DNA from: a virus
IMG/VR virus record: IMGVR_UViG_3300012920_000112
Coordinates: 1 to 36,182 of that record
Reading direction: 5' to 3' (one strand)
DNA: 36,182 nt
The notes under the pieces were generated by a model that was given only the letters and a program-made list of their open reading frames with translations, was not told the DNA's origin and did no database searches. Below, piece by piece: positions 1 to 23,885 of the stretch. Numbering within the stretch: position 1 is the first letter of the stretch; each line of letters opens with the position of its first letter. The position numbers and the translations under genes were made by a program.

Positions 1-174
1 AACAATGCTTTATACACTGCAAACTTTACACCACCCACACAGCCACTGACTGCAATCACAAATACAGCGCTACTAACCTGTAATGATAGTCATGTAATTA
101 ATGATGAGAGCGCTAACGGCGTCGTTCTAACACGTACCGGTGAAACAATTGCTACTAAGTTTAATCCATTTTGA
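1..174 (+). CDS. C-terminal end of a LamG-like tail structural protein (partial)
   Basis: An open frame runs from base 1 to a TGA at 172-174 and gives the last 57 residues of a protein whose start lies outside the window. The tail has the pattern ANFTPPTQPLTAI...LLTC..., followed by a DGVVL-like stretch; this closing segment is common after concanavalin A/LamG-like domains in marine T4-like phage structural proteins. It ends 18 nt before the next fibre gene, in line with membership of the same late structural block. Function beyond virion or fibre component cannot be read from this fragment. Confidence 0.7.
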   Translation, partial: NNALYTANFTPPTQPLTAITNTALLTCNDSHVINDESANGVVLTRTGETIATKFNPF

Positions 175-4653: not shown

Positions 4654-7124
4654 CGTTTACAGATGATGAAATAAAACAATATGCTACTGCTAAGGTAGGA
4701 ACAGTTTTATACACTTACACTCCTTATGGTTGGAAAAATATTGGAGTTGTTGACAATGTTCCATTTGATAGGGACAGCAATGGAAGGTTAGTGCCAGTTA
4801 CACCCGATGGTTATGATCCAGTTGCAGATGCTGTAACTCCAGTCGTAAATCTTGCTGAAGTAGATGAAAACGGTGATCCTATAACATGGAGACATCTTAC
4901 AAGTACAAAGGTGATGCAGCCTTCCACAAACAGAAGTCGTAAAGACTATGCTACAATATTTACAGATGGTTATCAGAAGACTATTGTTCCTAGAAAAAGG
5001 AATGAGACTGAAACAAAGAGTGATCCCGGACATGATGTTGGTCAAAGGTTTATAGTAAGGTTTGAAACTACAAACCAACCTCACTTTGCATTTGACTCTC
5101 ATTCAGAAAACTTTTTGATTCGAAGAGATAGCGATGGAGTTATTATTGATCCTGTAGATCATTACTTCGACTTAAGTGTTGCTGCAGATGGCGCATCTGT
5201 TATACGTGCTAGCAGTATATTAGCACTCAAATTATTCACTTTAGGTGTGCCTTTAGTTAGTTACAGAAAAACAACACCAGATGGATTTCAGCGAGCGCCT
5301 TCTCCTACTGGAATGGACTTTTCTGCAGACGGTAAAACTTTATTTTTATTAAGTGCTGGTAAACTTACAGGCTACAACTTAACAACACCGTTTGATCTTA
5401 TGAGTGCACAAACAACTCAACCTTCTAGCTTCGATGTATCACCAAACATATCTCCAACATCGGCTGGAGTTGTTGTTAACTCTAATGGAAGATTAGTTTA
5501 TATTCTTGACACCACTATGAAGAAAGTGTATGAATTTGATTTAGACGTAGCGAACGATGTTAGTACAATGATATTCAGATCAAACTTTTATAACAATCCA
5601 GAAGATATAGGTGAAAAGACTATCCTTACAACTGACGGAAAATTCATGTATTCACTGTGTTGCTACAAGTATACTGAGAATTCTCAAATAAAAAGGTATC
5701 CTCTGACTGAACCATATAGTGTTTCAACTGCTACAAACCATGCGGACATAGATACAGACTTTCCAAACGCACGTGATTACAGGATTTTTAGTGGTTATCC
5801 TAGTTGGACTGAAAGAAATATCCAAGGCGCTCAAGCGCAATACTCTGGCGGATGGAGAACAATATATGATCACTATGGAAAATTAAGAGACTTTCACTTA
5901 AAAGAAGATGGAACAGAAATATTTACTATATCAGAGTGTGCATCTGTAAACGGAGAGATTAAGCGCTATGAACTTAATACGGCATATGATCAGAGCTCTT
6001 CAAGCAACGTAACTACAATTGTACACACTATTGGTTCAACAGCACCAGAAGACTTTGAAAGAAATCAAAAAGAAAACGGTGTTCAAGCGATGCACATCAG
6101 TCCTGATGGAACAAAGATGTTTATTCTTGACACATCATCTCGATCTATTGTTCAGTACAATATGCAGACAGCGTTTGACATTGGATCTATTAACACTGGT
6201 AACTTATTGAAAAACGTACCTAAAACTCTTGATGCTTTTGGATATGATGAGATCCTTCAACTTTCAGATATTCCTGCGGTTGCGTCATCTCCACCTGGAA
6301 ACTTAACGCCCAATCACCCTGATGATACAGGTTTCTCTCAATCTACTTATCAAGACTTTTCACTTATAAGAGACATGCAGTTCAATGCAGCTGGAACTAA
6401 ACTCTATGTTTCAAATGATCATAAGATATATGAGTACAATCTAACAACTGCATATTCTATTTCATCTGCATTATTTTCAAGATCACACAGTCAATATCAA
6501 ACTCACCTTGAAAATAAAAATGGAACTGCAAACTTTCATTATGATTCTGGAGGAAGAATTTATATTTCAGATGCCAGTGATGACATCATTCGTGAGTTTG
6601 GTCTTGATTCTCATATAGGAACTGGAACTTCGCAGTTTGTTGAAAAGGTCCTTGATGTAGATATTTCAAATCCAAAAGATATTGATATGAGTTCAGCAGA
6701 CAGCAGTATTTTTATAAGTGGAACCGGAAGTGTATCTAAGTTTCCTTCTGCAGGAACTGCCTTTAGAATAGAAAAATATAATATGTCAACTCCTGGAAAA
6801 TTACATTCGGCTGCACTTGCAGATAGTTACTATAATGATAACTTAGTGGCTACAGGTGATGGGATTGTGTTTAACCAAGATATGACAAAAGCATTCATAG
6901 CTGGAAACGACGGTAGAGCACAAAGAATAAAAACATTGGAAGTTGACTCAGCACTATCGAATGCAATTGTTTCTCCTGATGAGTATGATCTTAGATCGAC
7001 AAATAACAATGATGATATCAAAGGAATAAGGTGGAATTCAACTGGAACTGAATTCACTGTCACCGGTGCAGATTTAGAAGAAACATATAAAACAAGTACT
7101 CCATACAGGATAACTCTTATATAA
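4650..7124 (+). CDS. Beta-propeller-like tail fibre protein, 824 aa
   Basis: From about residue 214 to the C-terminus the protein consists of some eight to ten degenerate repeats of about 45-60 residues. Their form is F-x-x-DGTKLY-V/I-(L)...-I-x-x-Y-x-L-x-T-A-Y-D-I-x-S-A; clear copies begin at GMDFSADGKTLFLL, AMHISPDGTKMFIL and DMQFNAAGTKLYVS. This is the pattern of beta-propeller blades found in marine phage tail proteins. The first 200 residues form a separate N-terminal region that shares a short motif (LAE-D-N...WRH) with the C-terminus of the preceding fibre. The start codon sits inside the previous stop (ATGA), so translation is probably coupled. Likely a distal fibre or baseplate-attached adhesin. 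Confidence 0.82.
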   Translation: MTFTDDEIKQYATAKVGTVLYTYTPYGWKNIGVVDNVPFDRDSNGRLVPVTPDGYDPVADAVTPVVNLAEVDENGDPITWRHLTSTKVMQPSTNRSRKDYATIFTDGYQKTIVPRKRNETETKSDPGHDVGQRFIVRFETTNQPHFAFDSHSENFLIRRDSDGVIIDPVDHYFDLSVAADGASVIRASSILALKLFTLGVPLVSYRKTTPDGFQRAPSPTGMDFSADGKTLFLLSAGKLTGYNLTTPFDLMSAQTTQPSSFDVSPNISPTSAGVVVNSNGRLVYILDTTMKKVYEFDLDVANDVSTMIFRSNFYNNPEDIGEKTILTTDGKFMYSLCCYKYTENSQIKRYPLTEPYSVSTATNHADIDTDFPNARDYRIFSGYPSWTERNIQGAQAQYSGGWRTIYDHYGKLRDFHLKEDGTEIFTISECASVNGEIKRYELNTAYDQSSSSNVTTIVHTIGSTAPEDFERNQKENGVQAMHISPDGTKMFILDTSSRSIVQYNMQTAFDIGSINTGNLLKNVPKTLDAFGYDEILQLSDIPAVASSPPGNLTPNHPDDTGFSQSTYQDFSLIRDMQFNAAGTKLYVSNDHKIYEYNLTTAYSISSALFSRSHSQYQTHLENKNGTANFHYDSGGRIYISDASDDIIREFGLDSHIGTGTSQFVEKVLDVDISNPKDIDMSSADSSIFISGTGSVSKFPSAGTAFRIEKYNMSTPGKLHSAALADSYYNDNLVATGDGIVFNQDMTKAFIAGNDGRAQRIKTLEVDSALSNAIVSPDEYDLRSTNNNDDIKGIRWNSTGTEFTVTGADLEETYKTSTPYRITLI

Positions 7125-7127
7125 ATA
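7120..7127 (+). promoter_or_regulatory. T4-type late promoter TATAAATA
   Basis: An exact TATAAATA lies 21 nt before the ATG at 7149 and overlaps the end of the preceding gene. T4-like phages use TATAAATA as the -10 element for late transcription by the gp55 sigma factor with no -35 element. Its position just before a structural gene supports the call. Confidence 0.7.
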
Positions 7128-8279: not shown

Positions 8280-9932
8280 ATGGTTTCACTAACTGATTTA
8301 AGAGGGACGGTAACAGGAGGAGTAGATTCCGCCTCAACGATATCACTCATACAAAACACTGTTGATTCGAGCTACGTATCACTGAGATCAGCAGGTGCAG
8401 AATTAGATTCAAGTTCAGTGATGGGTATTGTTAACACTTCTAGTATTGTTCCCATTGCAGACTCTTCTTTGAGTCTAGGTAGTTCTTCTCATAAATTTAA
8501 AGAACTCTACCTTTCGGCTGGAACCCTTCACTTAGGAGATAAAGAATTTAAGAAGAAAGATATTCTTGACTTTGATATGTCTATTGAACCAGAAACAATG
8601 ACTATTAGTGTTGATGTTGACGCTGCAGGAGCTATGCCTCCTTGGCTCTGGTCTTGGGACGTGACTTCAAACATACCATACGCAAGATCAAGAATTAGAA
8701 ATCAAACTCAGGTTAATGTTCCTTTGTATCATGATGGAACATACACTATTAATAACTTTACTGCGCACTCAACGTACGGCAATGCAACACAACCTCATAA
8801 GATATATTTAAAATGGATTGATGGTGCTGGCACTCAGAACATTCCTTCTTGGTCAACATCTACTCTTAACGTACAAGGTGTATCAATGGACGGAGTAAGA
8901 GGAGGAGCAGCAACAGAAGTGCAGAGACTGAACATCAATGTTCCTGCAGAAGGTGTTGGAACTCCAACACTTACTCCTCCAACATTAACTTACAATATCG
9001 GTGCCGCTGGTGGTCAATATGTTTATAGTGGAATAGCAACTGGAGCAAACACTGATATTGGTCCTCTTTATAAAGGAGGTACATATACCTTTCAATTAGA
9101 TAGTTCAGCGAATGGACATCCGTTCTATCTTTCAACTGATTCTGCTGGTGCACCATACACAAGCGGAGGATACACTAATGAATACTTAGATGGTGTAACT
9201 GGAAGTAGAGTTAATGGTCCTGGTAGTTTAGTATTCACTGTTCCATCAGATGCACCAAGCTCTCTTATATACAGGTGTGGATTACATGCAGGAATGGTTG
9301 GAAATATTACAATTAAAGATTTAAAACTGGATAGTAACGGAGCGGGTAATCCAATTCTTTATTTTCAACACGATCAAGAGCATCATAAAACTCCAGTTGA
9401 GATAAGGCCAATTCCAGACGCATCATCTCAAATGTGTTTAACTTTTGACGGAACAAAGTTTGTTCCTCAAGACATGAATGTTTATTTACAGAAGACACCA
9501 ATAATGAGAGATGCAGTAAAAGAACTAGCATCAGAGCAGACTACCGCTGAAGTCGCTGCGGGTAACATTGCAACACCTAGTAGTTTAAAAGATATTACTA
9601 TTCAAAGTACAAACTTATCTCAGCAAGGTGATTTAAGTATTGTGGAAGGAACAGCAAGATGGTATCCTCCCTTTAATGCTCAAATAACTGAAGTCATCCC
9701 TCGACTTGGAACAGCTGCAGATGCAACAGTTGGAATTGTTATTGAAAAAAATGATTCTGATCATGCATCATTTTCATTCGGTGCGGGTATAACACAAGTA
9801 ACTCTTGATTCGAACAACAACATTCCTTTTACAATGACCGATAGTGATTACATAACAGTTGATGTTACGTCAATCGGAAATACCAATAAAGGTAAAGATC
9901 TATTAATTCAATTTAGATACAAACAAACTTAA
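8280..9932 (+). CDS. Tail fibre protein with embedded cupredoxin-like domain, 550 aa
   Basis: The N-terminus carries the LSLGSSSHKFKELYLSAGT segment widespread in marine myophage fibre and structural proteins. Residues about 240-350 form a plastocyanin-like domain: GHPFYL (His280) and, after a VFTVPSDAPSS turn, the motif YRCGLHAGMVG with Cys333, His336 and Met339. This is the C-x2-H-x2-M spacing of cupredoxin-like proteins, and together with His280 it gives a full type-1 copper-ligand quartet. The remaining C-terminal 200 residues are beta-rich with no family I recognise. GGAGG lies 7 nt before the ATG. The structural role is well supported; actual copper binding is inference. Confidence 0.8.
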   Translation: MVSLTDLRGTVTGGVDSASTISLIQNTVDSSYVSLRSAGAELDSSSVMGIVNTSSIVPIADSSLSLGSSSHKFKELYLSAGTLHLGDKEFKKKDILDFDMSIEPETMTISVDVDAAGAMPPWLWSWDVTSNIPYARSRIRNQTQVNVPLYHDGTYTINNFTAHSTYGNATQPHKIYLKWIDGAGTQNIPSWSTSTLNVQGVSMDGVRGGAATEVQRLNINVPAEGVGTPTLTPPTLTYNIGAAGGQYVYSGIATGANTDIGPLYKGGTYTFQLDSSANGHPFYLSTDSAGAPYTSGGYTNEYLDGVTGSRVNGPGSLVFTVPSDAPSSLIYRCGLHAGMVGNITIKDLKLDSNGAGNPILYFQHDQEHHKTPVEIRPIPDASSQMCLTFDGTKFVPQDMNVYLQKTPIMRDAVKELASEQTTAEVAAGNIATPSSLKDITIQSTNLSQQGDLSIVEGTARWYPPFNAQITEVIPRLGTAADATVGIVIEKNDSDHASFSFGAGITQVTLDSNNNIPFTMTDSDYITVDVTSIGNTNKGKDLLIQFRYKQT

Positions 9933-9938
9933 AAATCG

Positions 9939-9952
9939 TATAAATATAAATA
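9939..9952 (+). promoter_or_regulatory. Two overlapping late promoters (TATAAATA x2)
   Basis: TATAAATA occurs at 9939-9946 and again at 9945-9952, sharing two bases, in the 45-nt gap before the gene at 9978. This is the densest late-promoter match in the window and probably drives 9978-13698. Confidence 0.72.
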
Positions 9953-10235: not shown

Positions 10236-10236
10236 A

Positions 10237-12012: not shown

Positions 12013-12027
12013 CCTAGGAGTTGCTAT

Positions 12028-13698
12028 ATGTCAACTTCAGTAGAGCTCTTTATACATGAGCTAGGAATTAACACAAGAAACGCTGAGAAAACAGCTAATT
12101 CTTTTCCTACTGACATTCAAGCTGGCGCCCCGGCTCCTATTCTCGTATACAAAGGTGATTCAACCGGATCCTATGGTATTCTTTCAGAAACCATAGGAAT
12201 TCCTGTAGGTTCCGGTAATTTCCTGTCTGATTTAAATCAAACAGGTGGTGGAGTAACTTTTGCTATTAAAGATTCTTCTGGCTCAGTAGCTGACGCATTT
12301 ATGACTAATGCTAAGATAAGTGTTGCTGCAGATTCAACCTACCTTGATTTCGACTCTACATCAAATCTAGGATTAACTGCGCGTTTAACTCAGACTGATA
12401 ACATCGTTGTTAGTCAGGATTTAGGTGCTGACCCGGGAGTTAACCTACTTGATTCAATAACATTAAACAACGAAATGCTTAAGGTTAATAATATTACTGG
12501 TCAACCTTATCCTCCTCATTATCACCAAAACTTAAATTCTTTACAAAGCGCTATTATTGCTCAACACCCTACTACATCTGGAACTAATGTTCAAGATTCT
12601 TCGGGTGGTCAGTGGAGCTATAGTAACATAGTTAGAGCTACTAAGGACGGACTAGAAGCTTTGGACATGACATCTAGGTCCTACGGTCTTGGAACTTGGA
12701 ACCAGTCTGTGACTTATCCTGAAGAGTACACTATGTATCTTTTATGCCACATGAATAATAATACGAGTGCATGGAAATCATATTATTCTTGGAATAATAG
12801 TTCGTCACTTCTTCTATGGATTGATCCGTCAGGAAATATTGGAACATACACTGGAACTTTGTTTAATCAATACATTGATCAAAATTCTTGGCAGAGAATT
12901 GTTTTACAAGGAAAACGCAATGGCACTAGTGGATCTAGTACAAATTTTAAGTTGTGGATAAATGGTAATGGACCCTACACGAAGCAGACTTATGGGCCAT
13001 CTGCAACCGATAAGATTAACTATTACTACTCGTATTCAAGTTATTATCCACAGTACGTTGCAATGACCGGCATAGTAGAAGGATCATCTGATGAGATTGC
13101 TTTTCATTTGAACCAACAAATGGCACACTATATGGATAATAGTAACCCTACTGGAGTCGCCTTTACAAAAAATATCTCCACTTTTACTGGAACGAGTAGT
13201 CTTGCCTCTCCACCACATGCAAAGTTCGATGTCAATGCACACGGCAGGACAGGTGATTCGGCTATGTCATCAGGACTATCTTTTACCACTTCAAATAATG
13301 ATAGCATAAACCATTTAGATTTAAACACTTCGATAAAGCTAGCTGAAACTGGAAAGGTCTTTTGTGATAAAGACACTTTGTATTTTGGTCATAAACTATA
13401 TGGAAGTTCAGTGTCTAGTGTTGAATTTTTTTCAGATCCCATCGGTGTAGATCTTCGACAGAGCGACATAAAGATATTACACCCCAGAGACGTATCTGCA
13501 TATTCACCATTGTCTTCTCTTGCTCAATCAATAACAATGATAATAAAAGAAGAAGCACCTATAGCTTTCTTTAAAGATTCTGTTGGTCTTGGCACTGGAA
13601 ACAGGTTTGAACTTCTTGATAAATTCAATGATCCTAGACTTGCTGTAGAGCCAGTGCAACAAAATCAAACGTCTGGACCAGTTCAGATCTGGTTCTAA
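12028..13698 (+). CDS. LamG-like tail fibre protein, 556 aa
   Basis: The middle of the protein (about residues 190-365) reads like a LamG domain: YTMYLLCHMNNN, then SSLLLWIDPSGNIG, SWQRIVLQGKRNG and FKLWINGNGPY. The N-terminal 140 residues include an SVTFAIKD-like beta domain. The C-terminal 150 residues (FDVNAHGRTGDSAMSSGL... DPIGVDLRQSDIKIL) are of unknown fold. AGGAG lies 7 nt before the ATG. It is the last gene of the late fibre block; an early-type promoter for a different class of genes starts right after its stop. Confidence 0.8.
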   Translation: MSTSVELFIHELGINTRNAEKTANSFPTDIQAGAPAPILVYKGDSTGSYGILSETIGIPVGSGNFLSDLNQTGGGVTFAIKDSSGSVADAFMTNAKISVAADSTYLDFDSTSNLGLTARLTQTDNIVVSQDLGADPGVNLLDSITLNNEMLKVNNITGQPYPPHYHQNLNSLQSAIIAQHPTTSGTNVQDSSGGQWSYSNIVRATKDGLEALDMTSRSYGLGTWNQSVTYPEEYTMYLLCHMNNNTSAWKSYYSWNNSSSLLLWIDPSGNIGTYTGTLFNQYIDQNSWQRIVLQGKRNGTSGSSTNFKLWINGNGPYTKQTYGPSATDKINYYYSYSSYYPQYVAMTGIVEGSSDEIAFHLNQQMAHYMDNSNPTGVAFTKNISTFTGTSSLASPPHAKFDVNAHGRTGDSAMSSGLSFTTSNNDSINHLDLNTSIKLAETGKVFCDKDTLYFGHKLYGSSVSSVEFFSDPIGVDLRQSDIKILHPRDVSAYSPLSSLAQSITMIIKEEAPIAFFKDSVGLGTGNRFELLDKFNDPRLAVEPVQQNQTSGPVQIWF

Positions 13699-13706
13699 AA
13701 TATCTA

Positions 13707-13735
13707 TTTACTTTTCCTATAAATTATGGTATAAT
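13707..13735 (+). promoter_or_regulatory. Early-type promoter of the glycan island (TTTACT-N17-TATAAT)
   Basis: The -35 TTTACT is at 13707-13712 and the -10 TATAAT at 13730-13735, with an ideal 17-nt spacer ending in TATGG. This matches T4 early promoters (GTTTACTT ... TATGGTATAAT), which use the host sigma-70. It lies 20 nt before the ATG at 13755, with AAGGA at 13743-13747. Confidence 0.82.
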
Positions 13736-13754
13736 GGTATAAAAGGAATTCATA

Positions 13755-14531
13755 ATGAAACGTTTGATATATCAAGTTTATGTTGGTAAAAGATCAAAAC
13801 TTTACGATCACTGTGTTGATTCCGTAAGAGATTATTGTAAAGAACACGATATAGATCACACGGTTCAAAGAATACCACTTCTTTCAATAAAACCAGATGT
13901 TTTTGTGACGAATCGAAGTAAAGAGTCATATGAAAAACATGGTGGTTATCTTCCCATATATGAAAAAGAGAATGCATTTAGCTACTTCAAAACGTTTGAT
14001 CAGATAGCTATAATTGATGCAGACGTCTGGATAAGACCTGGGTCACCTAACATATTTGATGAACTCACCGAAGAATATGACTTTGGTGGTGTAGTGGAAA
14101 GATCTGCACCTATTGAACCTTGGTACCAACAAAAATTAATCCAATATTCTAGAATGCAGTTCATGAATATAGGAGTCGATTGGAAGTGGAACGAACTCGG
14201 TGCTGAGTTTATAAACATGGGTATCATGGTCATGAATAAGAAAATGAGTAGATACTTAAATGGAGAAACTCCTGAACAGTTTATAAGAAGACCTGAGTTT
14301 AAAGATTTTGTAGATGGAATAGGAAACTGGAAGTGGTCAACAGATCAAGTGCTACTTAACACTTGGATAAAACAAGAAAAAATGAATGTAAAGAATATGG
14401 ACTGGAGATGGAATGGTTTATTTACTGCAAACACTAGAATCAAAGAGTGTTACTTTGTACACTTCTTCTTAAAGGACAAGTTACCAAACGGTGGAGAGAA
14501 TGTAGATGAACTAAGGAGACTTGTTGAATGA
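13755..14531 (+). CDS. GT-A glycosyltransferase (GT8-like), 258 aa
   Basis: This predicted cytoplasmic sugar transferase begins with the strand MKRLIYQVYVGKRSKLYDHC and carries the metal/nucleotide-sugar DxD motif at Asp88-Ala-Asp90 (IAIIDADVWI). FINMGIMVMNK follows at the place where GT8 enzymes position the acceptor/donor loop, and WSTDQVLLNTW matches the D-Q element of LgtC-type enzymes. It is first in a 13-gene operon behind a sigma-70-like promoter, with AAGGA 7 nt before ATG, and overlaps the next gene by 4 nt. It resembles the genes at 14528 and 15208, so tandem duplication is likely. Donor and acceptor sugars are unknown. Confidence 0.8.
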   Translation: MKRLIYQVYVGKRSKLYDHCVDSVRDYCKEHDIDHTVQRIPLLSIKPDVFVTNRSKESYEKHGGYLPIYEKENAFSYFKTFDQIAIIDADVWIRPGSPNIFDELTEEYDFGGVVERSAPIEPWYQQKLIQYSRMQFMNIGVDWKWNELGAEFINMGIMVMNKKMSRYLNGETPEQFIRRPEFKDFVDGIGNWKWSTDQVLLNTWIKQEKMNVKNMDWRWNGLFTANTRIKECYFVHFFLKDKLPNGGENVDELRRLVE

Positions 14532-15211
14532 ATATAATACTACAACACTATGATGGAAAGTTAGGCGAGCTTGAGGAACTTTCAAAGTATAACATGGAGT
14601 GTTATGCAAGAGATGTAGGCGCAGAGTATCACTTAATAAAAGGCATGCCGTTTGATAGTAGTATTAAATCACAGTGTCAAAAAGTACACATGATTCATCA
14701 GGACTTTGATTCTTACAATGAAGTTCTTATGGTTGACATCGACATGTTTGTTCCAAAGGAAATATCAGAGAATGTGTTTGACTGGCCTGGGATAGGAATG
14801 TATGAACCTATTCAGCAAGGACTACACAGAGGAATGGTGAGATCAAGACCAGGTGAACTCGACCTAGCCAATATTGATGCACCCTATTGGGGTGGTGCCA
14901 TATACAAGATGGATAGAATTACTAGACAAAGACTAAGATCTGCTTTAGAGGCAGTTAATTTTCAACACCCTGGTTGGAGGAACAATCACCCTCATGTTGA
15001 TGAAGGAATATTTCACACACTTGCATATAAGGCTGGATTCAAAGTAAAAGAACCAAAGATGTTTATTGATCAAAGATGGTGCTGGTGTAGTTACTTACCC
15101 AATCCAGAAAAAGCTCTCATGATGCATATAAGAAATAAGTCGACTCCTCAAGGAGATAGAAAACCTAAGATAGAGAACTACAAGAATCTGGTTGCAAGAG
15201 GAATACTGTGA
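14528..15211 (+). CDS. GT-A glycosyltransferase-like protein, 227 aa
   Basis: The N-terminus MNIILQHYDGKLGELEELSK and the motif VLMVDIDMFVP (Asp70-Ile-Asp72) match the paralogous enzymes on either side. APYWGGAIYKMD corresponds to their conserved N/G-x-G-x-x-x-M/F acceptor segment, and HPHVDEGIFHTLAYKAG replaces the W-D-Q element with a D-E pair. It is a little shorter than the neighbours. Start and stop both overlap neighbouring genes by 4 nt (ATGA; GTGA), pointing to coupled translation. Probable glycosyltransferase; sugar specificity cannot be read. Confidence 0.75.
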   Translation: MNIILQHYDGKLGELEELSKYNMECYARDVGAEYHLIKGMPFDSSIKSQCQKVHMIHQDFDSYNEVLMVDIDMFVPKEISENVFDWPGIGMYEPIQQGLHRGMVRSRPGELDLANIDAPYWGGAIYKMDRITRQRLRSALEAVNFQHPGWRNNHPHVDEGIFHTLAYKAGFKVKEPKMFIDQRWCWCSYLPNPEKALMMHIRNKSTPQGDRKPKIENYKNLVARGIL

Positions 15212-16014
15212 AAAATCTAATATATCAAGTGTATTCCGGAACACTTTCTGAAGAGTGCAGAGTTAGTAGTAGGTTAATGAAACAATACGCTAATCGTATT
15301 GGAGCCGAGTACTGGTTACATATAGATCCAAACATAGCTTCAAAAAAAGTAGATAGCAATGGACCTTATTGGGAATGGCTTAATCCTGTTATAGACGATA
15401 AGTTTCTAGAGTATGACAATGTTCTAGTTGTTGACTTAGATATATTTCCAGTTGAAGGACTAAAAGAAAATATATTTGAACAGGAGATAGGTGATATTGG
15501 AATATGTACAGAACCTTTTCAAGGAAAGTACAGGTCCACCGTAACAGTGGCTGGACATATCAACGGACAGAACGATGAGAAGTGGGCCAGAGTTATAAAA
15601 GAAAAATGGGGTGTTAGTCTACCTAGAGATAGTGATGGATACTTAAAAGTCTTCAATGCCGGAATGGTTGTCTTTTCAAATGAAGGAATGAAGAAAGCTA
15701 GAAAGTGGACATCATTTCAAGAATACATTAACTTAATTCGCAATAAGGGTTTTGGTAGGTTTTATTGGGTTGATCAGAACTACATACACGCAATGATGTG
15801 CGTTAATAAAGATATAAATTATATTGAGATGGATAATGGATGGAACTCACAGATCCACTATGTAAGAGGACCAATGGCACTGACAACTCCAATCAATGAC
15901 GAAAGAACTCTTAACACTAAGTTTGTACATGTACAAATGACAGCGATGCGGTGGAATGAAAAGACGTTACACCAAGTAGTTAATAAACCACAATCTCAGT
16001 GGGAATTTTTATAA
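15208..16014 (+). CDS. GT-A glycosyltransferase (GT8-like), 268 aa
   Basis: Translation starts at GTG inside the previous stop (GTGA). The opening MKNLIYQVYSGTLSEECRVS closely parallels the first gene of the operon. The catalytic DxD is Asp76-Leu-Asp78 (NVLVVDLDIFP). FNAGMVVFSNEG and FYWVDQNYIHAMM give the acceptor loop and D-Q motif expected of GT8-like enzymes. The next gene starts on the base after the stop. A third member of the local paralogue family; its role in adding a sugar to a surface glycan is inferred. Confidence 0.8.
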   Translation: MKNLIYQVYSGTLSEECRVSSRLMKQYANRIGAEYWLHIDPNIASKKVDSNGPYWEWLNPVIDDKFLEYDNVLVVDLDIFPVEGLKENIFEQEIGDIGICTEPFQGKYRSTVTVAGHINGQNDEKWARVIKEKWGVSLPRDSDGYLKVFNAGMVVFSNEGMKKARKWTSFQEYINLIRNKGFGRFYWVDQNYIHAMMCVNKDINYIEMDNGWNSQIHYVRGPMALTTPINDERTLNTKFVHVQMTAMRWNEKTLHQVVNKPQSQWEFL

Positions 16015-16617
16015 ATGCAAAGGTATGAACACGGTATGATAAACTCAGAATTAGGACACTGCAAGAGTATAGAAGAATTCAACAGTGAGATTCGAAGACA
16101 ACAAGAAGGTGCACACGGTAAAGGATACTGCTCTTTACATGATGCAATACGAAAGTACTTGAAAAAAAGTGACACCTACATGGAGTTTGGTGTACATCAA
16201 GGAGGAACAGCATCTGCAGCAATGCTAGCGAAACCTAGGAAAATCATTCTTGTTGATGTAGACTTTACAAAATATAACATGTTTCTTCGACCTCTTGCTC
16301 ACAAATACTGTGAAGAAAATAATATAGAATTAGTTTTAAAACAAGCCAGTTCAATTGAACTAGGATCTCTCAACAACTGTGATATGTTGAATATCGATTC
16401 AGTTCATTCACAACGTCATATGACACAAGAACTTGCTCTTCACGGAAATAATATTAATACGTATCTATTAGCTCATGATACAAAACAACTTTACGGCAAA
16501 GATGATGATAGACTACATAGAACTCTCATGGACTTTGCAAAAACTAACAAGTGGGATCTAATTGAAAGAGGAGAACAGAGTGTTGGATACACTGTTCTGA
16601 AAAAAAGTAATGGCTAA
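16015..16617 (+). CDS. Class I SAM methyltransferase-like protein, 200 aa
   Basis: The glycine-rich SAM motif is MEFGVHQGGTAS (Glu57-Gly64), followed by the acidic strand end IILVDVDF and the post-motif DMLNIDSVHSQ. This order resembles Methyltransf_24/cephalosporin hydroxylase-like enzymes often found in carbohydrate clusters, where they O-methylate sugars. The C-terminus has LLAHDTKQLYG. The gene starts immediately at the previous stop and overlaps the following methyltransferase by 8 nt. Function as a sugar methyltransferase is inference from fold and context. Confidence 0.72.
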   Translation: MQRYEHGMINSELGHCKSIEEFNSEIRRQQEGAHGKGYCSLHDAIRKYLKKSDTYMEFGVHQGGTASAAMLAKPRKIILVDVDFTKYNMFLRPLAHKYCEENNIELVLKQASSIELGSLNNCDMLNIDSVHSQRHMTQELALHGNNINTYLLAHDTKQLYGKDDDRLHRTLMDFAKTNKWDLIERGEQSVGYTVLKKSNG

Positions 16618-17197
16618 TATAACCAACGAAGGATTTGTTATCGACGATGATAAGCCTCACTTAGGAGGTAACTTAAACTTTTCTGATGGATCTTCATGGG
16701 CACCAGAAGCTTGGGACTATCTTATTAAAAAGTATAATTGTAAAACTGCTATTGATATTGGTGGTGGATATGGATTCTGTACAGAGTGGATGGAGGAAAA
16801 AGGTATTGATTGTGTAAATCACGATGGACTTCAACACAACATTGATAATTCAAAAGCAAAGAATAATTTATTGCATGATATAACTAAAGGTCCTATCAAA
16901 CATGACAGGGTGGACTTAGTCAACTGCATTGAAGTTGTTGAGCACATAGAAGAAAAGTACATGTATAACCTTATGAATAGTCTTACACTAGGTAACGTTG
17001 TACTCATAACACACGCTGAGCCTCACCATGCAGATAGAGGTCATCATCACGTAAACTGCAAGGATAGACAATACTGGATTAATCAGTTTAGAATATACGG
17101 ACACGATTTTTGTTCTGAAGAAACAGACAAGATAAAGAGTCTAAGAGTCGGTTGGCACATAAAGAGAAGTGGTTTGGTTTTCAAACGAAGAGCATGA
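16610..17197 (+). CDS. SAM-dependent methyltransferase, 195 aa
   Basis: Motif I is AIDIGGGYG at residues 47-55, and VDLVNCIEVVEHIEEKYM supplies the typical motif IV plus E-V-x-E-H-I signature of Methyltransf_11/23-type enzymes. A His-rich segment (HAEPHHADRGHHHVN, about residues 140-155) sits where the usual P-P or N loop occurs and could bind metal or shape the active site. The length is short but complete for this class. It overlaps the preceding gene by 8 nt and the next start by 4 nt. Likely methylates a sugar or sugar nucleotide in the same pathway. Confidence 0.75.
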   Translation: MANITNEGFVIDDDKPHLGGNLNFSDGSSWAPEAWDYLIKKYNCKTAIDIGGGYGFCTEWMEEKGIDCVNHDGLQHNIDNSKAKNNLLHDITKGPIKHDRVDLVNCIEVVEHIEEKYMYNLMNSLTLGNVVLITHAEPHHADRGHHHVNCKDRQYWINQFRIYGHDFCSEETDKIKSLRVGWHIKRSGLVFKRRA

Positions 17198-17961
17198 AAA
17201 ATCTAGTCTTTACCATCTTTATAAAGTCAGATTCTTTAGATAAAACACATGGTGAATTTAAGTACCATGATCTATATGAGTACGCAATAGAAAAAGCTAA
17301 GAAGTATTCACAAAAGTGTAACGCTGATTTTATTGTGATTGAAGATGACTCAGCCTTTCCTGGGTGGACACCTATATGGCAGAGGTTTGCACCTTTTGTA
17401 AAGTATAAAGATTATGACAATATATTATATCTAGATGCAGATCTTGTTATCACAGACAGCGCTCCTAATATATTTGAAACTATGTCTAAATGGGATGAAG
17501 AGGTTTTTGCTTCAATAGATTATGAAACAATACCTGGGAGAGCCTACTGTAAATATTTTAACGCAGGAATAATTGCATTTAAAAGATCTTTCTTAGATAA
17601 GTTTACTTATGATGAGATTATGGATGAGATGAAGAGATGGAAGTATACAAAGCATTGGGATCAAGAAGCTTTAAACTCTCTCGTTAAAAAGAAAACAAGT
17701 AGATACATAGATCTAGGAAGGTCTTGGAATACAATGAATTCTAATCTTAACGCTGGTAAGTACGCTCACGGAGTACACTATATTCACTACCATAAAAGAA
17801 AGTTTAATAAAGATATAATTGAACAGTACGAAAAGGATGTTGTAGGTACACTAATACTACCGGAAGAAAAAATAAACATATTCCCTAAATTTTGGAGAGA
17901 GTGGCAAGGTGACATTGTAAGTGCGGAGAAACAATATGACAAAAGCAAACACAACCTTTAA
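17194..17961 (+). CDS. GT-A glycosyltransferase (GT8-like), 255 aa
   Basis: The start chosen is the ATG overlapping the previous stop (ATGA); an upstream in-frame start would overlap the methyltransferase needlessly. MKNLVFTIFIK starts the fold and ILYLDADLVI gives the DxD at Asp81-Ala-Asp83. FNAGIIAFKRSF and HWDQEALNSL match the acceptor loop and D-Q motif of GT8-like enzymes. Fourth DxD enzyme of the operon and more diverged from the first three. The small gene downstream begins inside its last 26 nt. Confidence 0.8.
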   Translation: MKNLVFTIFIKSDSLDKTHGEFKYHDLYEYAIEKAKKYSQKCNADFIVIEDDSAFPGWTPIWQRFAPFVKYKDYDNILYLDADLVITDSAPNIFETMSKWDEEVFASIDYETIPGRAYCKYFNAGIIAFKRSFLDKFTYDEIMDEMKRWKYTKHWDQEALNSLVKKKTSRYIDLGRSWNTMNSNLNAGKYAHGVHYIHYHKRKFNKDIIEQYEKDVVGTLILPEEKINIFPKFWREWQGDIVSAEKQYDKSKHNL

Positions 17962-18163
17962 GTTATCAATCAGAGATATAGAAATTATTGAACATGCTTT
18001 AAGAGCCAAAGCAGGACGTAGAGGACTTGCAATTGCACAAGGTGAAACCTCACCTCAACTCAGAGAAGAAATGAATGAGATTCAAGAAGTACTTGGAAGG
18101 ATTCATGAACAGAAAAATTTCTATGCCAAGTTTAAAGATGGCAAAACTTACGTGAGTGGATAA
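17936..18163 (+). CDS. Small helical protein of unknown function, 75 aa
   Basis: The start at 17936 is chosen because GGAG lies about 8 nt before it; an ATG 15 nt upstream lacks such a site. The protein (KLSIRDIEIIEHALRAKAG..., then QLREEMNEIQEVLGRIHEQ) is predicted to be mostly alpha-helical with basic and acidic patches and no cysteines. I do not recognise a family. It sits between two glycosyltransferase genes within the same operon, overlapping the first by 26 nt. Confidence 0.7.
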   Translation: MTKANTTFKLSIRDIEIIEHALRAKAGRRGLAIAQGETSPQLREEMNEIQEVLGRIHEQKNFYAKFKDGKTYVSG

Positions 18164-18164
18164 G

Positions 18165-18857
18165 ATGAAAGCGTACGCTATAGTAATAAAAGGTAATGAA
18201 ATTTCAGAAAAAGGATATGAAAAACTCCTTGAAAGTTATCTTAAGTATTATCATGACTTTGGTTTATACAAGTTTGATGCAACAACTCCGGAAACAGTTA
18301 AAGAAGAAATGGAATATCGTCATATAAAGTGGAACTATCCATGGGAAGGAGAGGTAGTAGACTTTAGAACAGGATTGACGAAGAAAGCTTATCCAACTAA
18401 AAATCATGAAGCCAGAATTGCTTGTGCTATGAGTCACTTGCGGTTATGGTCAGAATGCACAAAACTTGGCGAGCCTATTATTATTCTTGAACATGACGCC
18501 GTGTTTGTAAAGAAAGTCGATTTTCAGCCGGAAGATACTGGATATGATATTGTAGGAATCAATAATCCTATAGGATGTACTCGAAAATCTAAAGTGTATC
18601 GAGATAAGATACTAGAAAAAACTCAGCCGTTTCAGTTAGCACCTTATATTGATGATGATATGAAGTATCCTCAAGGATTAGCCGGTAACTCTGCATATAT
18701 GGTTAAACCATCAGGTGCTTCAAAGCTTATAAGGCTCGTTCATGAACACGGTCTGTGGCCAAATGATGCAATCATGTGTAGACAACTTGTTGACATCGCA
18801 GTCACAAGAAAATTTTACACTACAGTTCAAGGTCTAAAGTCCACAACTACAGTATGA
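18165..18857 (+). CDS. GT25-like LPS glycosyltransferase, 230 aa
   Basis: EARIACAMSHLRLW followed by IIILEHDAVF (Glu109-His-Asp111) is the hallmark of family GT25 (LgtB/Lex2-type) lipooligosaccharide galactosyltransferases. The later GNSAYMVKPSGASKLI element matches too. A GTG nine bases upstream could also serve as start; ATG was preferred although its ribosome site is weak. Length is close to the family. The protein shares its layout with the gene at 19914, so two GT25 copies flank an SDR and a methyltransferase-like gene. Acceptor likely LPS-type glycan; sugar unknown. Confidence 0.82.
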   Translation: MKAYAIVIKGNEISEKGYEKLLESYLKYYHDFGLYKFDATTPETVKEEMEYRHIKWNYPWEGEVVDFRTGLTKKAYPTKNHEARIACAMSHLRLWSECTKLGEPIIILEHDAVFVKKVDFQPEDTGYDIVGINNPIGCTRKSKVYRDKILEKTQPFQLAPYIDDDMKYPQGLAGNSAYMVKPSGASKLIRLVHEHGLWPNDAIMCRQLVDIAVTRKFYTTVQGLKSTTTV

Positions 18858-19312
18858 TATATCAAAGTCAAAAATATAAGTATTATATTACTGGAACTAG
18901 AAGAGGATTAGGACTCGCTTTAGCAAAGAAATATAATACTGTTGATAGTTTTGAGGAGTGCGATGTTTTTATCAATTGCAAGTACGATATGTGGTACCAA
19001 ACTGACATGGCATATCTTGCAGCAGAAGCCGGAGTATCTCGTATAATTAATATAGGATCAATGGCCAATGAATGGTACAAAGGATTTAAGCCTTACTATA
19101 AGTATGGACTAGCAAAGAAAGCATTAAAGGATGTTAATGATCAATTGTTTCATCAAGGAGTTAACACCACTATAATTAACTTTGGATATTTTGAAAGTGA
19201 ATCCACAAAAGATATTGAAGAACCAAAAATGACAATGGGATACTGCATAGAAATGATTGATTTTATACTTAATCAGCAATATAGAATAAAAGAAATTACG
19301 GTGTGCGCATGA
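18854..19312 (+). CDS. Minimal short-chain dehydrogenase/reductase, 152 aa
   Basis: The nucleotide-binding motif TGTRRGLG is at residues 13-20, and the catalytic triad pattern is intact: Ser69 (IINIGSM), Tyr84 and Lys88 (YGLAK). The usual N-N-A-G strand end is replaced by FINCKYD. At 152 residues it is about 100 shorter than typical SDRs, lacking much of the central helices and C-terminal substrate lid. The compactness seems evolved, not broken: the frame is open, starts in an ATGA overlap and ends in another. Probably acts on a sugar nucleotide or surface sugar; substrate unknown. Confidence 0.78.
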   Translation: MIYQSQKYKYYITGTRRGLGLALAKKYNTVDSFEECDVFINCKYDMWYQTDMAYLAAEAGVSRIINIGSMANEWYKGFKPYYKYGLAKKALKDVNDQLFHQGVNTTIINFGYFESESTKDIEEPKMTMGYCIEMIDFILNQQYRIKEITVCA

Positions 19313-19917
19313 TAGAGGAATACATTCCAAAGTTTATGCAATGTCTATACGCCGAACAGTGTAAAGATGTAGTTGAGACGCAAGAACTAATCGACATGTT
19401 TCATGAAAATCAAATAAACAGTAAGAAAGAGATTATAAAAGCGTGTGATCTTTTAAAGATAAGTGATGATAATTATGTGAATGGTTTGTATATAGGTTCT
19501 TGGATGGGATACATGACTCGTATACTTTGTGAACAATATAATTATTATATGAGTGAACTTGAACTAGATGAGAGATGTGGACCAATAAGTTTAAAGTTTA
19601 ATGAAAAGAATAAAAGATACAGAGAACACATAGTTGGAAATGCTTTAGACCAAGATAAAGATTTTTTTGAAAGGTACAATCTCGTAGTCAATACGAGCTG
19701 TGAACACATGGATAGCAGTTGGTACTATAAACTTCCAGATAAGTCTTGGATAATTATTCAATGTAATGATTATGATGCTATTGATGATCATGTTAATTGT
19801 GTATCTAGCATAGATGAGATGAAAGGTAAATATCCTATGCATGTAAAATTTGAAAGTGAATTGCAATGTACAATATACAAAAGATTTACGTTAGCCGGAC
19901 AGATTAGACACTCATGA
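19309..19917 (+). CDS. Methyltransferase-like protein, 202 aa
   Basis: The start is taken at the ATG overlapping the previous TGA. A Rossmann-type glycine-rich turn, GLYIGSWMGYMTRIL, is followed by SELELDERCG and, later, NLVVNTSCEHMDSSWYY, which correspond in order to motif I, the acidic strand 2 end and motif IV of class I methyltransferases. The motif I glycines are reduced compared with canonical G-x-G-x-G, so activity or even substrate could differ. Lies between the SDR and a GT25 gene; a role in sugar modification is inferred from this setting. Confidence 0.62.
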   Translation: MIEEYIPKFMQCLYAEQCKDVVETQELIDMFHENQINSKKEIIKACDLLKISDDNYVNGLYIGSWMGYMTRILCEQYNYYMSELELDERCGPISLKFNEKNKRYREHIVGNALDQDKDFFERYNLVVNTSCEHMDSSWYYKLPDKSWIIIQCNDYDAIDDHVNCVSSIDEMKGKYPMHVKFESELQCTIYKRFTLAGQIRHS

Positions 19918-20573
19918 AAGCTTTCGTATTAACAATCAAGAACCTAGAAGAATCGAATCAAGCTGCAGATCGATGCATAAAGTCTGCTTCTACGTTTGGT
20001 TATAAAGTTGAAAAGCATTATGGATACACACCAGAAGATGATCCTGTAAATATGTTAAAAGAACTCAATATACCTATCAATCAGTTTAAAGAAAAATATT
20101 CATATCTTGAAAAGTGTGTTGCTGCTTTCTTAGGTCACAGATCACTTTGGAAGAAATCAGTTGATCTACAAGAAAACGTGTTGGTACTTGAACATGATGC
20201 GGTGTTTACCGGTCCTCTTCCAGATAATGTCATTGATTCAACACTGTATGATATTGTTTCTTTTGGGACTCCTTCTTATGGAAAATGGAACACACCAAGT
20301 ATATTAGGAGTAGGTCAACTTACTTCAAAGCAATACTTTCCTGGAGCTCACGCTTATATGGTTACACCTTATGGCGCAAGACAAGCTTTAAAAAAGGCAC
20401 AAACAGAAGCAGGACCAACAGATACTTTCTTTAACATTAAAAGGTTTCCGTACTTAAAAGAGTATTATCCATGGCCTGTTATGGCAAGTGATAGTTTCAC
20501 TACAATTCAAAGAAGAGAAGGTTGTTTAGCGAAACATAATTGGAAAGATGGAATAGGCTATGAGATTATCTAA
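19914..20573 (+). CDS. GT25-like glycosyltransferase, 219 aa
   Basis: MKAFVLTIKNLEESNQAADR opens the protein, AAFLGHRSLWKK and VLVLEHDAVF (Glu93-His-Asp95) give the GT25 core, and GAHAYMVTPYGARQAL matches the family's acceptor-side element. It ends in a segment with a DSFTTIQR motif. It overlaps the previous stop by ATGA and the following DxD gene by 14 nt. Similar to 18165 but clearly diverged; together they suggest two sequential transfers on the same glycan. Confidence 0.8.
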   Translation: MKAFVLTIKNLEESNQAADRCIKSASTFGYKVEKHYGYTPEDDPVNMLKELNIPINQFKEKYSYLEKCVAAFLGHRSLWKKSVDLQENVLVLEHDAVFTGPLPDNVIDSTLYDIVSFGTPSYGKWNTPSILGVGQLTSKQYFPGAHAYMVTPYGARQALKKAQTEAGPTDTFFNIKRFPYLKEYYPWPVMASDSFTTIQRREGCLAKHNWKDGIGYEII

Positions 20574-21234
20574 ATCATTCATAACTGGATGTGACAGTAG
20601 TTGCGAATGGATGCTTCCATGGTTTATGAGTAACTACAAGAAGTACAACACTTATCCTATTATATTTGCTGATTTTGGTGTTACTGAAGAATTCAAAGAG
20701 TACGTAAAAGAAAACTTTGATGGTGTCATTGACATGACTGACGTTCCAGATAAAGGTTGGTTTAAGAAACCTAAATCGATGATTAGAGCAGAAAAACTAT
20801 CAAAGGCTACATGTTGGATAGACACTGATATCGAAATCCTTGACAACATTGAATCCATATTCAGTTATGTAGAACCTAATAGACTTGCTATGGTCGAAGA
20901 TAAACCTTGGACAAAAAGAAGACCAGATATGAGAGGTCTACAATACTATAATTCAGGAATAGTTGCATTTGAAGGATCTCCACAAATATTGCATCAGTGG
21001 GCGTATAACGTAGAAAAGAATCCAAGACAAGGAGATCAAGAAACACTACACGCCATGATGGATTCACCACTTACGCAGAGGGTATATATTACTGAACTAC
21101 CAAATGAATACAACTGGCTTAGATTACAGATCGAACACGATAATCAAGATAGTTCTAAAAAGAAAACTATTCATTGGACTGGACCAAAGGGAAAAGATAA
21201 AATTAGGAGTAAGATGAAACAATGGGAGACGTAG
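20560..21234 (+). CDS. GT-A (DxD) glycosyltransferase, 224 aa
   Basis: MRLSKSFITGCDSSCEWMLP precedes a short Rossmann half with ATCWIDTDIEIL (Asp88-Thr-Asp90) as the metal motif. YYNSGIVAFEGSP is the acceptor loop, and RQGDQETLHAMMD is a D-Q equivalent. HWTGPKGK near the C-terminus resembles the H-(x)-G-x-x-K signature that closes the active site in GT8 enzymes, which supports the family call. The fifth DxD enzyme of the island, overlapping both neighbours. Confidence 0.8.
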   Translation: MRLSKSFITGCDSSCEWMLPWFMSNYKKYNTYPIIFADFGVTEEFKEYVKENFDGVIDMTDVPDKGWFKKPKSMIRAEKLSKATCWIDTDIEILDNIESIFSYVEPNRLAMVEDKPWTKRRPDMRGLQYYNSGIVAFEGSPQILHQWAYNVEKNPRQGDQETLHAMMDSPLTQRVYITELPNEYNWLRLQIEHDNQDSSKKKTIHWTGPKGKDKIRSKMKQWET

Positions 21235-21884
21235 CGCACATTATAGGAAACGGAAAGAGCTCAGGCTTTTACGTTCCCGATAAGGGATTAAAGATTACAT
21301 GCAACCTTCCTCCTTTTGAAGTCAACAACGTCTACACTACAGTAATGGTAGACTTTAAGATGATGAATGCAATTCATAAAGGTGAAGTCGTTGTTCCAGG
21401 TGATTGGGTTCTAGGTGCACGTCCGCATAAATGGATGGAAATGAGAAATGACTTCTATATTAAGTATGGTCACCAGATAAAAGAGTTCTACTTAAAACTT
21501 CCAAAGTACGCTGCCAACTATACTGATTTTAACTGCGGCCACATGGCAACTCATTGGGTAGCAAATAAACTTAAAAGGAAAGAGATCCACATGTATGGAT
21601 TTGATTCTATATTTGAGTTTGATACTACAAGCATGTCAGACACTTTTATGATGTCAGTTAGAGACAATATGAATACTGAAAGACTCACCACGAGATGGAG
21701 ACCTATTTGGTTTGGTATCTTTAATGAGTTTAAGGATACACAATTTATATTGTATCACGATAAAGGTAACTCTATGCTTAAACTTCCCGAAAACGTAGAA
21801 GTTCGAACCTCTAACAAAGGGAAGACAGCTACTCGAAGGGAGAAGATTATTGATGAATCTTCCGGACTTCCTCTTCCAGACTAA
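21222..21884 (+). CDS. Unknown GNGxS protein ending the glycan island, 220 aa
   Basis: The N-terminus VAHIIGNGKSSGFY has the G-N-G-x-S/P-S turn seen in phosphate- or nucleotide-sugar-binding proteins of surface glycan clusters (DUF115/MptE-like and sialyltransferase-like groups). ITCNLPPF and HMYGFDSIF follow in the same order as in those groups. The similarity is only motif-level, so I do not name a reaction. The gene overlaps the previous one by 13 nt and is the last before a conserved intergenic cassette, so it closes the operon. A sugar-transfer or sugar-nucleotide role is inferred from context. Confidence 0.65.
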   Translation: MGDVAHIIGNGKSSGFYVPDKGLKITCNLPPFEVNNVYTTVMVDFKMMNAIHKGEVVVPGDWVLGARPHKWMEMRNDFYIKYGHQIKEFYLKLPKYAANYTDFNCGHMATHWVANKLKRKEIHMYGFDSIFEFDTTSMSDTFMMSVRDNMNTERLTTRWRPIWFGIFNEFKDTQFILYHDKGNSMLKLPENVEVRTSNKGKTATRREKIIDESSGLPLPD

Positions 21885-23288: not shown

Positions 23289-23668
23289 CGTATTATATTG
23301 TAGAAGGCGGTGGAACCCGTCAGAGAAAACTAGCCGAAGAAGCAGCAGAGTTTGCAATACAAAAACTCTTTCCTCGGTTTAAGAATTATGAGATATTCGT
23401 ACAATTGACAAAAGATAATACAGATGTTTTTGAAGAAGACGAAAGAACTTATCAGGTCAGAGTAAGTACGAAGCAAAGTAGAGAGGATTTTATTACTGGT
23501 ATATTTCACGAGTTTGTGCACATAGATCAGTATCTAAGAGGTAGGATACACAACTATGACTATAAAAACTTTGAGGAATACATCAATCATCCGGCTGAAG
23601 TAGAGGCATATGCTAGACAAGAAGAACTACTTAATGAATGGAATACTGCCCGTAGCTCAGCTGGATAG
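23285..23668 (+). CDS. HExxH zincin-like protein, 127 aa, 3' end inside tRNA-Arg
   Basis: The zinc-binding pair is in HEFVH (His75, Glu76, His79), followed by HPAEVEAYARQEE where Glu105 or Glu107 could be the third ligand, as in small gluzincin/SprT- or ImmA-like proteins. It probably is a metallopeptidase or a metal-dependent hydrolase. The start overlaps the preceding gene (ATGA). The last seven or so codons and the TAG stop are contained in the first 23 nt of tRNA-Arg, so the C-terminal residues are read from the tRNA acceptor and D-arm sequence. Real coding may once have ended further upstream. Confidence 0.68.
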   Translation: MTYYIVEGGGTRQRKLAEEAAEFAIQKLFPRFKNYEIFVQLTKDNTDVFEEDERTYQVRVSTKQSREDFITGIFHEFVHIDQYLRGRIHNYDYKNFEEYINHPAEVEAYARQEELLNEWNTARSSAG

Positions 23669-23722
23669 AGCAAGAGACTTCTAATCTCTAGGTCGGGGGT
23701 TCGAATCCCTCCGGGCAGGCCA
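23646..23722 (+). tRNA. tRNA-Arg (anticodon UCU)
   Basis: A 77-nt cloverleaf folds cleanly: acceptor CTGCCCG/CGGGCAG, D-stem GCTC/GAGC, anticodon stem AGAGA/TCTCT with loop CTTCTAA, and a T-arm with TTCGAAT. The discriminator is G and CCA is encoded. UCU reads AGA, the Arg codon that dominates the surrounding genes. It overlaps the 3' end of the HExxH gene. Confidence 0.93.
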
Positions 23723-23724
23723 AT

Positions 23725-23808
23725 GGGAGACATGTTACAAGGTGTGACAGGGGACTGTAAATCCTCCGGGGAAACCCACGCCAGGTTCGATTCCTGGGTC
23801 TCCCACCA
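23725..23808 (+). tRNA. tRNA-Tyr (anticodon GUA)
   Basis: An 84-nt class II tRNA: acceptor GGGAGAC/GTCTCCC, anticodon stem GGGGA/TCCTC around CTGTAAA, and a long 14-nt variable region with its own GGG/CCC stem, as in bacterial tRNA-Tyr. The T-arm is CCAGG-TTCGATT-CCTGG, with discriminator A and encoded CCA. It follows tRNA-Arg by 2 nt. Confidence 0.92.
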
Positions 23809-23811
23809 AAC

Positions 23812-23885
23812 GCGGGTATAGTATAATGGTATTATCGCAGCCTTCCAAGCTGAGGATACGAGTTCGATTCTCGTTACCCGCTCCA
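23812..23885 (+). tRNA. tRNA-Gly (anticodon UCC)
   Basis: A 74-nt tRNA: acceptor GCGGGTA/TACCCGC, anticodon loop CTTCCAA, T-arm ACGAG-TTCGATT-CTCGT, discriminator T and encoded CCA. The D-stem is weak. UCC reads GGA, frequent in the glycine-rich tail genes here. Third of a tight three-tRNA array. Confidence 0.9.

Follow-up and report, generated by a model that had tools for sequence, protein, structure and literature searches.

A glycosyltransferase cassette with a constant frame and a variable middle behind an early-type promoter in marine T4-like phages

Introduction

Onto which molecule would a T4-like phage build a sugar chain with a run of thirteen genes rich in glycosyltransferases, and at what stage of the infection? 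This question is raised by an island at 13755-21884 of the IMG/VR virus record IMGVR_UViG_3300012920_000112. The window analysed here is this whole record of 36,182 bases, itself a fragment. Variable regions rich in glycosyltransferases have already been described in marine T4-like phages, as has a link to lipopolysaccharide (LPS) and coinfection: for pelagimyophages, Zaragoza-Solas et al. (2020, PMC7029224) proposed that the O-chain is modified against coinfection. Here we describe a cassette with a fixed frame of five genes and an exchangeable middle, which appears to be expressed early, and we weigh the molecules on which its product may be placed.

Results

A fixed frame around an exchangeable middle

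The thirteen open reading frames (ORFs) of the island lie on the same strand, and of their 12 junctions 10 overlap, one abuts and one leaves a gap of 1 nucleotide (nt), which confirms the thirteen-gene island of the initial annotation. Their products comprise five glycosyltransferases (GT) with a DxD motif (GT1 to GT5), two of family 25 (GT25a and GT25b), three methyltransferase-like proteins (MT1 to MT3), an SDR-like protein, a protein with a GNGxS motif (hereafter GNGxS) and one protein of 75 residues (Table 1). The earlier tally of thirteen was right, except that the methyltransferase label of MT3 found no match in Pfam, PHROG or the PDB.

A search with GNGxS identified 214 viral contigs, and 80 of these were retrieved; most of the relatives are fragments, many loci are cut, and genes were called by a simple script. 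GT5 was present in 79 of the 80 loci, GT25b in 78, GT25a in 73 and GT1 in 52, a set of counts to be read against the many cut loci. The order GT25b, GT5, GNGxS was identical in all 62 loci in which the three genes were called. The constant frame consists of GT1 as the opening gene, followed by GT25a-GT25b-GT5-GNGxS. Between GT1 and GT25a, 29 arrangements were found, with genes for sulfotransferases, TylF/Methyltransf_24 proteins, epimerases, UDP-glucose dehydrogenases, nucleotidyltransferases, RuBisCO-like proteins and others. MT1 recurs in 17 of the 80 loci, MT2, GT4 and MT3 have no relative in any of them, and the SDR-like protein has a single one, on the opposite strand of L067. The closest full-length relative, G070, has, as judged by eye, another DxD protein in place of GT5 and additional aldolase-like and HAD-like genes.

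Because the gene set of the middle differs in almost every relative, the island does not represent one fixed pathway. The proposal that it encodes the whole pathway for a single specific side chain is therefore not supported, and the scarcity of relatives of MT2, GT4, MT3 and the SDR-like protein also speaks against it. Judged by gene content and order, the island combines a constant frame with a variable interior and represents the local form of a cassette that is widespread among marine T4-like phages.

The variable parts of relatives also contain genes of other kinds. A RuBisCO-like protein is encoded in L063 (5057-6136) and about 10 related loci, beside a sugar nucleotidyltransferase gene; the L063 protein scores 80 bits with PF00016 and 117 bits with TIGR03326, the latter far under its cut-off. 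A PnrA/Bmp-type substrate-binding protein with an apparent signal peptide (L005, 3338-4396; PF02608, 177 bits) occurs in relatives close to the window. The cassette of L005 also encodes a protein like class II aminoacyl-tRNA synthetases (PF00152, 5105-5923), adjoining a gene for a 2-oxoglutarate-Fe(II) oxygenase (6048-6911).

An early-type promoter precedes the cassette

In the window, GT1 is preceded by an early-type promoter with the motif of strong sigma70-type early promoters (GTTTAC... TATAAT) and not by the T4-type late motif TATAAATA; promoters are given here as consensus matches backed by comparison among relatives. The strict motif TTTAC[AT]-16..18-TA[TC]AAT has only two sites on both strands of the window together, as compared to an expectation of 0.085 per strand, one being the TTTACT-17-TATAAT at 13707 and the other lying at 26663. 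Since sigma70-like matches of the general kind are no commoner in the window than in shuffled sequences (60 vs 64), the claim of an early promoter rests on this strict motif and on the relatives, in which the same promoter class is found. The early-type promoter of the initial annotation is thereby upheld. The late motif occurs seven times on the + strand and never on the − strand, with 2.2 expected. Late promoters had also been assigned to the flanking fibre genes, and on the upstream fibre side this is borne out, with TATAAATA preceding 7149 and 9978.

The 177.5-kb relative G070, whose completeness was deduced from gene content, shows the same layout, with fibre genes, GT1-GT2-GT3-MT1-GT25a-GT25b-GNGxS and then a lipase gene. 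It contains the genes and promoters expected of a T4-like myovirus (gp23 major capsid protein, TerL, gp43, gp44-47, gp55 and late promoters). In agreement with the initial assignment to a T4-like phage, gp23 is also found in other cassette relatives, and the window itself has a gp9-type connector gene and TATAAATA. On the + strand of G070, TTTACA-17-TATAAT occurs 12 times. It stands directly ahead of the genes for ribonucleotide reductase, RNase H, gp45 (clamp), gp43 (DNA polymerase), gp55 and GT1, with further sites close to the genes for TagD, primase and uvsX. The late motif TATAAATA stands ahead of structural genes, including the fibre-type ORF 82230-83582 that ends just before GT1 (background 0.5% per 130 nt).

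TTTACA-17-TATAAT is located 57 nt ahead of GT1 in G070/L358 and 55 nt ahead in L370, while L355 has TTGACA-17-TATAAT. A sigma70-like box precedes GT1 in all five distinct fibre-preceded arrangements (the window, L355, L358, L364 and L387), although it is weaker in L364 and L387, and TATAAATA lies within 260 nt of GT1 in none of the five. Of 369 cassette gene starts, none has TATAAATA within 70 nt. Early DNA-metabolism genes (RNase H, PhoH, NT5C or nuclease) lie within 8 kb ahead of GT1 in 85 of 90 distinct loci. We take this distribution to mean that, in the clade of the window, the cassette became separated from the early operon by fibre genes and there appears to have its own early promoter. 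These comparisons suggest that the cassette is switched on early, together with the DNA-replication genes.

The enzymes of the island

Pfam matches were judged against the family cut-offs. The classes initially assigned to the individual genes were supported by these profile searches in part: GT4, GT25a, GT25b and MT2 score above the cut-off, MT1, the SDR-like protein and GT5 fall below theirs, and GT1, GT2, GT3, MT3 and GNGxS have no Pfam match. The PHROG searches of the window proteins returned few matches, and none for GT2. By PF01501 together with the DxD motif, GT4 alone belongs to family GT8; GT1 joins it by fold only, and GT2, GT3 and GT5 are left without assignment. GT2 and GT3 are related to each other, as are GT1 and GT4. 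Both GT25a and GT25b score above the cut-off of PF01755, with a conserved ExD/EHDA region, and the GT25b profile matches the solved GT25 structure 8xc8 (E 1.6e-8) and a mimivirus GT25 (E 0.036).

The AlphaFold model of GT1, built from an alignment of 39 sequences, has a predicted local distance difference test score (pLDDT) of 90.8. Its Foldseek matches are UGGT (GT24), LgtC (GT8) and the PBCV-1 capsid glycosyltransferase 2p6w, with E values of about 1e-8 to 1e-7 (8.6e-8 for 2p6w), and by this model GT1 is a GT-A transferase. D88 and D90 are invariant in 39 relatives of GT1, as are D88 and D90 in 38 relatives of GT5, and EHDA is invariant in the GT25b alignment. Given these invariant residues, the three enzymes are probably kept active. 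In GNGxS, G9, N10 and G11 are invariant. Its model (44 sequences, pLDDT 86) matches a viral DUF115 protein in BFVD (E 7.5e-4), with weaker matches to MptE-like and GT29 sialyltransferase-like proteins and none under E 0.001 in the PDB. We read GNGxS as a probable sugar-nucleotide-using enzyme with a DUF115-like predicted fold. The glycan-assembly function first proposed for the island is supported.

All of the island proteins appear soluble, the maximal 19-residue hydropathy among them being 1.02. A membrane-like segment is absent from every one, and the island encodes no flippase, ligase or membrane protein. The isoelectric points of the proteins gave no clear signal.

Table 1. Coordinates of the cassette, its promoter and the upstream features in the window
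Feature	Coordinates	Strand	Evidence
Early-type promoter, TTTACT-17-TATAAT, extended −10 TGG-TATAAT	13707..13735	+	strict motif and relatives
GT1, opening cassette gene, predicted GT-A fold glycosyltransferase with DAD	13755..14531	+	AlphaFold/Foldseek
GT2, DxD glycosyltransferase-like	14528..15211	+	33.6% to GT3, E 5e-9
GT3, DxD glycosyltransferase-like	15208..16014	+	phrog_28746; 20.8% to GT4, E 6e-4
MT1, probable S-adenosylmethionine (SAM) methyltransferase (CmcI/RMNT type)	16015..16617	+	PF04989 E 0.0057, PF13578 E 0.03, both under cut-off
MT2, SAM methyltransferase	16610..17197	+	PF08241 27.7 bits, above cut-off
GT4, GT8-family glycosyltransferase with DAD	17194..17961 (ATG at 17194)	+	PF01501 26.6 bits, cut-off 24.3
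75-residue basic protein	17936..18163	+	84% relative between GT25a and GT25b in L074
GT25a, glycosyltransferase family 25	18165..18857	+	PF01755 45.4 bits
Short SDR-like protein, 152 residues	18854..19312	+	PF00106 E 2e-4, under cut-off
MT3, labelled methyltransferase-like earlier	19309..19917	+	no profile support
GT25b, glycosyltransferase family 25	19914..20573	+	PF01755 26.1 bits, above cut-off
GT5, glycogenin/GT8-like transferase with DTD	20560..21234	+	Pfam E 0.012, under cut-off; profile vs glycogenin E 0.002
GNGxS protein, closing cassette gene, DUF115-like predicted fold	21222..21884	+	AlphaFold, BFVD
T4-type late promoter TATAAATA ahead of gene at 7149	7120..7127	+	
Baseplate wedge/tail fibre connector-like protein (gp9-type), upstream neighbour	8280..9932	+	phrog_677 E 7e-17
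Two overlapping late motifs TATAAATA ahead of the fibre genes	9939..9952	+	
Fibre genes upstream of the island	9978-13698	+	
Final fibre-type gene ahead of the island	12028..13698	+	position and size; no family match

Distribution of the frame

A search with GT1 found at least 578 viral relatives. Among 50,697 cultured-phage records, GT1 and GT25b have none, and GNGxS has one, in C48C1 (39%); this phage has one annotated glycosyltransferase nearby and no annotated hydroxymethylase, and adds no further support. In 84,980 species genomes GNGxS was found three times, twice on evident phage contigs (L221 and L222) and once as a match only (L223). Among 385 genomes of one class, GT1 was found in one, on the same phage contig as a GNGxS match, and GT25b otherwise gave only distant GT25 relatives. 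With GNGxS in 3 of 84,980 genomes and GT1 in 1 of 385, no host origin of the cassette enzymes was found, and the frame appears to be a phage-specific lineage, not a bacterial gene set. The sole hint of a host comes from a Rhodobacteraceae bin that includes a phage contig. Another phage-like contig of that bin, L457, carries a group of GT25, sulfotransferase-like and methyltransferase-like genes outside this cassette family.

Other features of the window

An esterase/lipase gene (25688-26431, phrog_21992) forms part of a conserved stretch on the 3′ side of the cassette; it is 64% identical to its counterpart in G070, which lies behind TATAAATA. Three tRNA genes (Arg, Tyr and Gly) are located at 23646-23885, the tRNA-Arg being 83% identical to one from Rhodobacter phage RcXuper. 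Near the right end, 34220-35137 encodes a Radical SAM domain protein (phrog_21308, E 3e-18).

Discussion

The phages that carry this cassette probably build a variable sugar chain of their own inside the infected cell. Our best guess for its acceptor, with a probability of roughly 0.4, is LPS or lipooligosaccharide (LOS) of the host. The island would be transcribed early from a host-sigma70-type promoter alongside the replication genes, and its cytosolic enzymes would build a short oligosaccharide, acting in sequence on one chain. GT1 and GT25a-GT25b-GT5-GNGxS would make the invariant part, which the exchangeable methyltransferases, sulfotransferases, extra glycosyltransferases and sugar-nucleotide enzymes may decorate or vary. 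The chain would be placed on the LOS/LPS core made during infection, and the altered core might change the receptor for superinfecting phages, or lower the binding of progeny to the cell and its debris.

An LPS/LOS acceptor fits both the enzyme types and the timing. GT8, GT25 and DUF115-like proteins are enzyme types known in LOS/LPS synthesis, the fold of GT1 matches LgtC, and relatives add genes for UDP-glucose dehydrogenase, epimerase and nucleotidyltransferase, which are typical of surface polysaccharide loci. While the cassette resembles the LOS outer-core enzymes in this respect, it differs from them in that GNGxS and GT1, among the genomes searched, belong to phage-only lineages. The seroconversion genes gtrABC of temperate phages are similar in that phage-encoded glycosylation of the host surface would have the same effect. 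However, the cassette lacks the membrane flippase, the bactoprenol transferase and the membrane GtrC-type protein of that system.

Several observations weigh against this assignment. The absence of a flippase, a ligase and any membrane protein is one, and LPS would be alterable only if made after infection. The key enzymes belong to phage-only lineages and are not host LPS genes, and the matches of GT1 to LgtC and to the virus-capsid glycosyltransferase are of similar quality. A single-mismatch copy of the late motif, TATAAATT, lies inside the early promoter at 13718, and no terminator-like site was found between the last fibre gene and the island. On account of these two features, additional late transcription is possible, such as read-through from the fibre promoters. 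Finally, the acceptor cannot be read from sequence, and LPS/LOS is what we infer. The early timing fits, without proving, the initial claim that the enzymes act on host surface glycans and not mainly on virions.

A serious, though less probable, alternative is glycosylation of the virion, in which capsid or fibre proteins would receive an O-methylated oligosaccharide while still unassembled in the cytosol, early synthesis serving to stock the enzymes. The capsid machinery of PBCV-1 (A064R and its partners) likewise consists of soluble virus-encoded glycosyltransferases and methyltransferases, and the resemblance of GT1 to the A064R domain 2p6w, that of GT25b to the mimivirus enzyme, the solubility of every island enzyme and the possible late read-through all accord with such a role. 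PBCV-1, however, is a eukaryotic virus, and a capsid acceptor for the cassette would be hypothetical. The cassette adjoins fibre genes in the clade of the window, but this is a feature of that clade, seen in 4 of 90 loci, and fibre glycosylation deduced from adjacency alone was accordingly rejected. No acceptor motif was identified, and the early timing, with a promoter common to the DNA polymerase and clamp genes, is the weak point of a virion acceptor.

It seems unlikely that the chain is placed on some other cytosolic molecule of host or phage, such as a lipid, a small metabolite or a regulatory protein, and that it serves a purpose that concerns neither the surface nor DNA. Sequence does not fix the acceptor, and the cassettes of relatives hold metabolic genes (RuBisCO-like, PnrA-like and class II aminoacyl-tRNA synthetase-like). 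On the other hand, the variable decorating enzymes would seem to resemble the chemistry of surface-exposed, immune-selected structures.

We consider it rather improbable that 5-hydroxymethylated pyrimidines in the phage DNA are where the chain is assembled and that it serves to block nucleases. Glycosyltransferases are known DNA modifiers in T4-like phages (PMC6024577, PMC13390438), among them the TAGT type of T6-like phages (PMC13390438), and the T4-type systems (alpha- and beta-glucosyltransferase, TAGT and the RB69 arabinosyltransferase) share with the cassette early, cytosolic, phage-encoded enzymes. The early timing fits, and several cassette contigs contain a T4 gp42-type dCMP hydroxymethylase (49% to T2 gp42) beside an HldE/TagD-like nucleotidyltransferase. 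Glycosylation of hydroxymethylcytosine was a strong candidate once gp42 had been found there, but it then failed the test of co-occurrence. This test used 15 large cassette contigs (G001-G003, G005 and G070-G080), fetched through GT1 or GNGxS and all containing GNGxS. The hydroxymethylase/thymidylate synthase family is present in only 6 of them, and it is absent from G070 despite a complete polymerase-primase-uvsX-helicase replication cluster, so that the constant pairing of dCMP hydroxymethylase and glycosyltransferases typical of T4-type modification is not found. The cluster of G070 instead holds two TAGT genes, and TAGT and hydroxymethylase occur together in 0 of the 15 contigs (about 0.04 by chance), with the cassette constant. 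Since the DNA-modification module (gp42-type or TAGT) changes while the cassette stays, DNA is the less likely acceptor. Moreover, the known T4-type enzymes are GT-B or TAGT proteins tied to gp42 or similar, whereas the cassette combines GT-A (GT1), GT25 and DUF115-like proteins independently of gp42. The members of the hydroxymethylase/thymidylate synthase family in G001 and G072 are divergent and low-scoring, the one in G001 standing beside TagD and asparagine synthase genes. A search for Tet/JBP dioxygenases returned no match, controls included, and is hence uninformative.

We regard it as very improbable that the promoter motif matches by chance and that the island is simply a set of late genes following the fibre genes: sigma70-like matches are generally unenriched in the window, TATAAATT overlaps the promoter and a terminator is missing ahead of the island, but the strict motif is kept ahead of GT1 in relatives whose upstream sequence differs, and replication genes share it.

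In the available text on the pelagimyophages (PMC7029224), the host recognition cluster resembles the present locus as a hypervariable region of T4-like marine myoviruses with tail fibres and GT8-type glycosyltransferases, but neither the GT1...GT25a-GT25b-GT5-GNGxS frame nor the early promoter is described, and the frame reported here usually follows RNase H/PhoH genes instead of fibres. As far as checked, the constant frame, the class and position of the early promoter, the independence from the type of DNA modification and the near absence from cultured phages are new.

If host LPS or LOS is indeed altered early, lytic marine phages would control the co-infection of their cell, a notion so far argued from annotations only. 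We would tentatively entertain the idea that the product is instead a phage-only, multi-sugar, methylated or sulfated oligosaccharide on the lytic phages' own DNA or virion, made by the five-enzyme frame with exchangeable decoration; such a coat would amount to a serotype-like variable phage glycan across hundreds of uncultured marine viruses. The constant frame with its swapped middle provides a defined, expressible enzyme set, including the phage-only DUF115-like protein.

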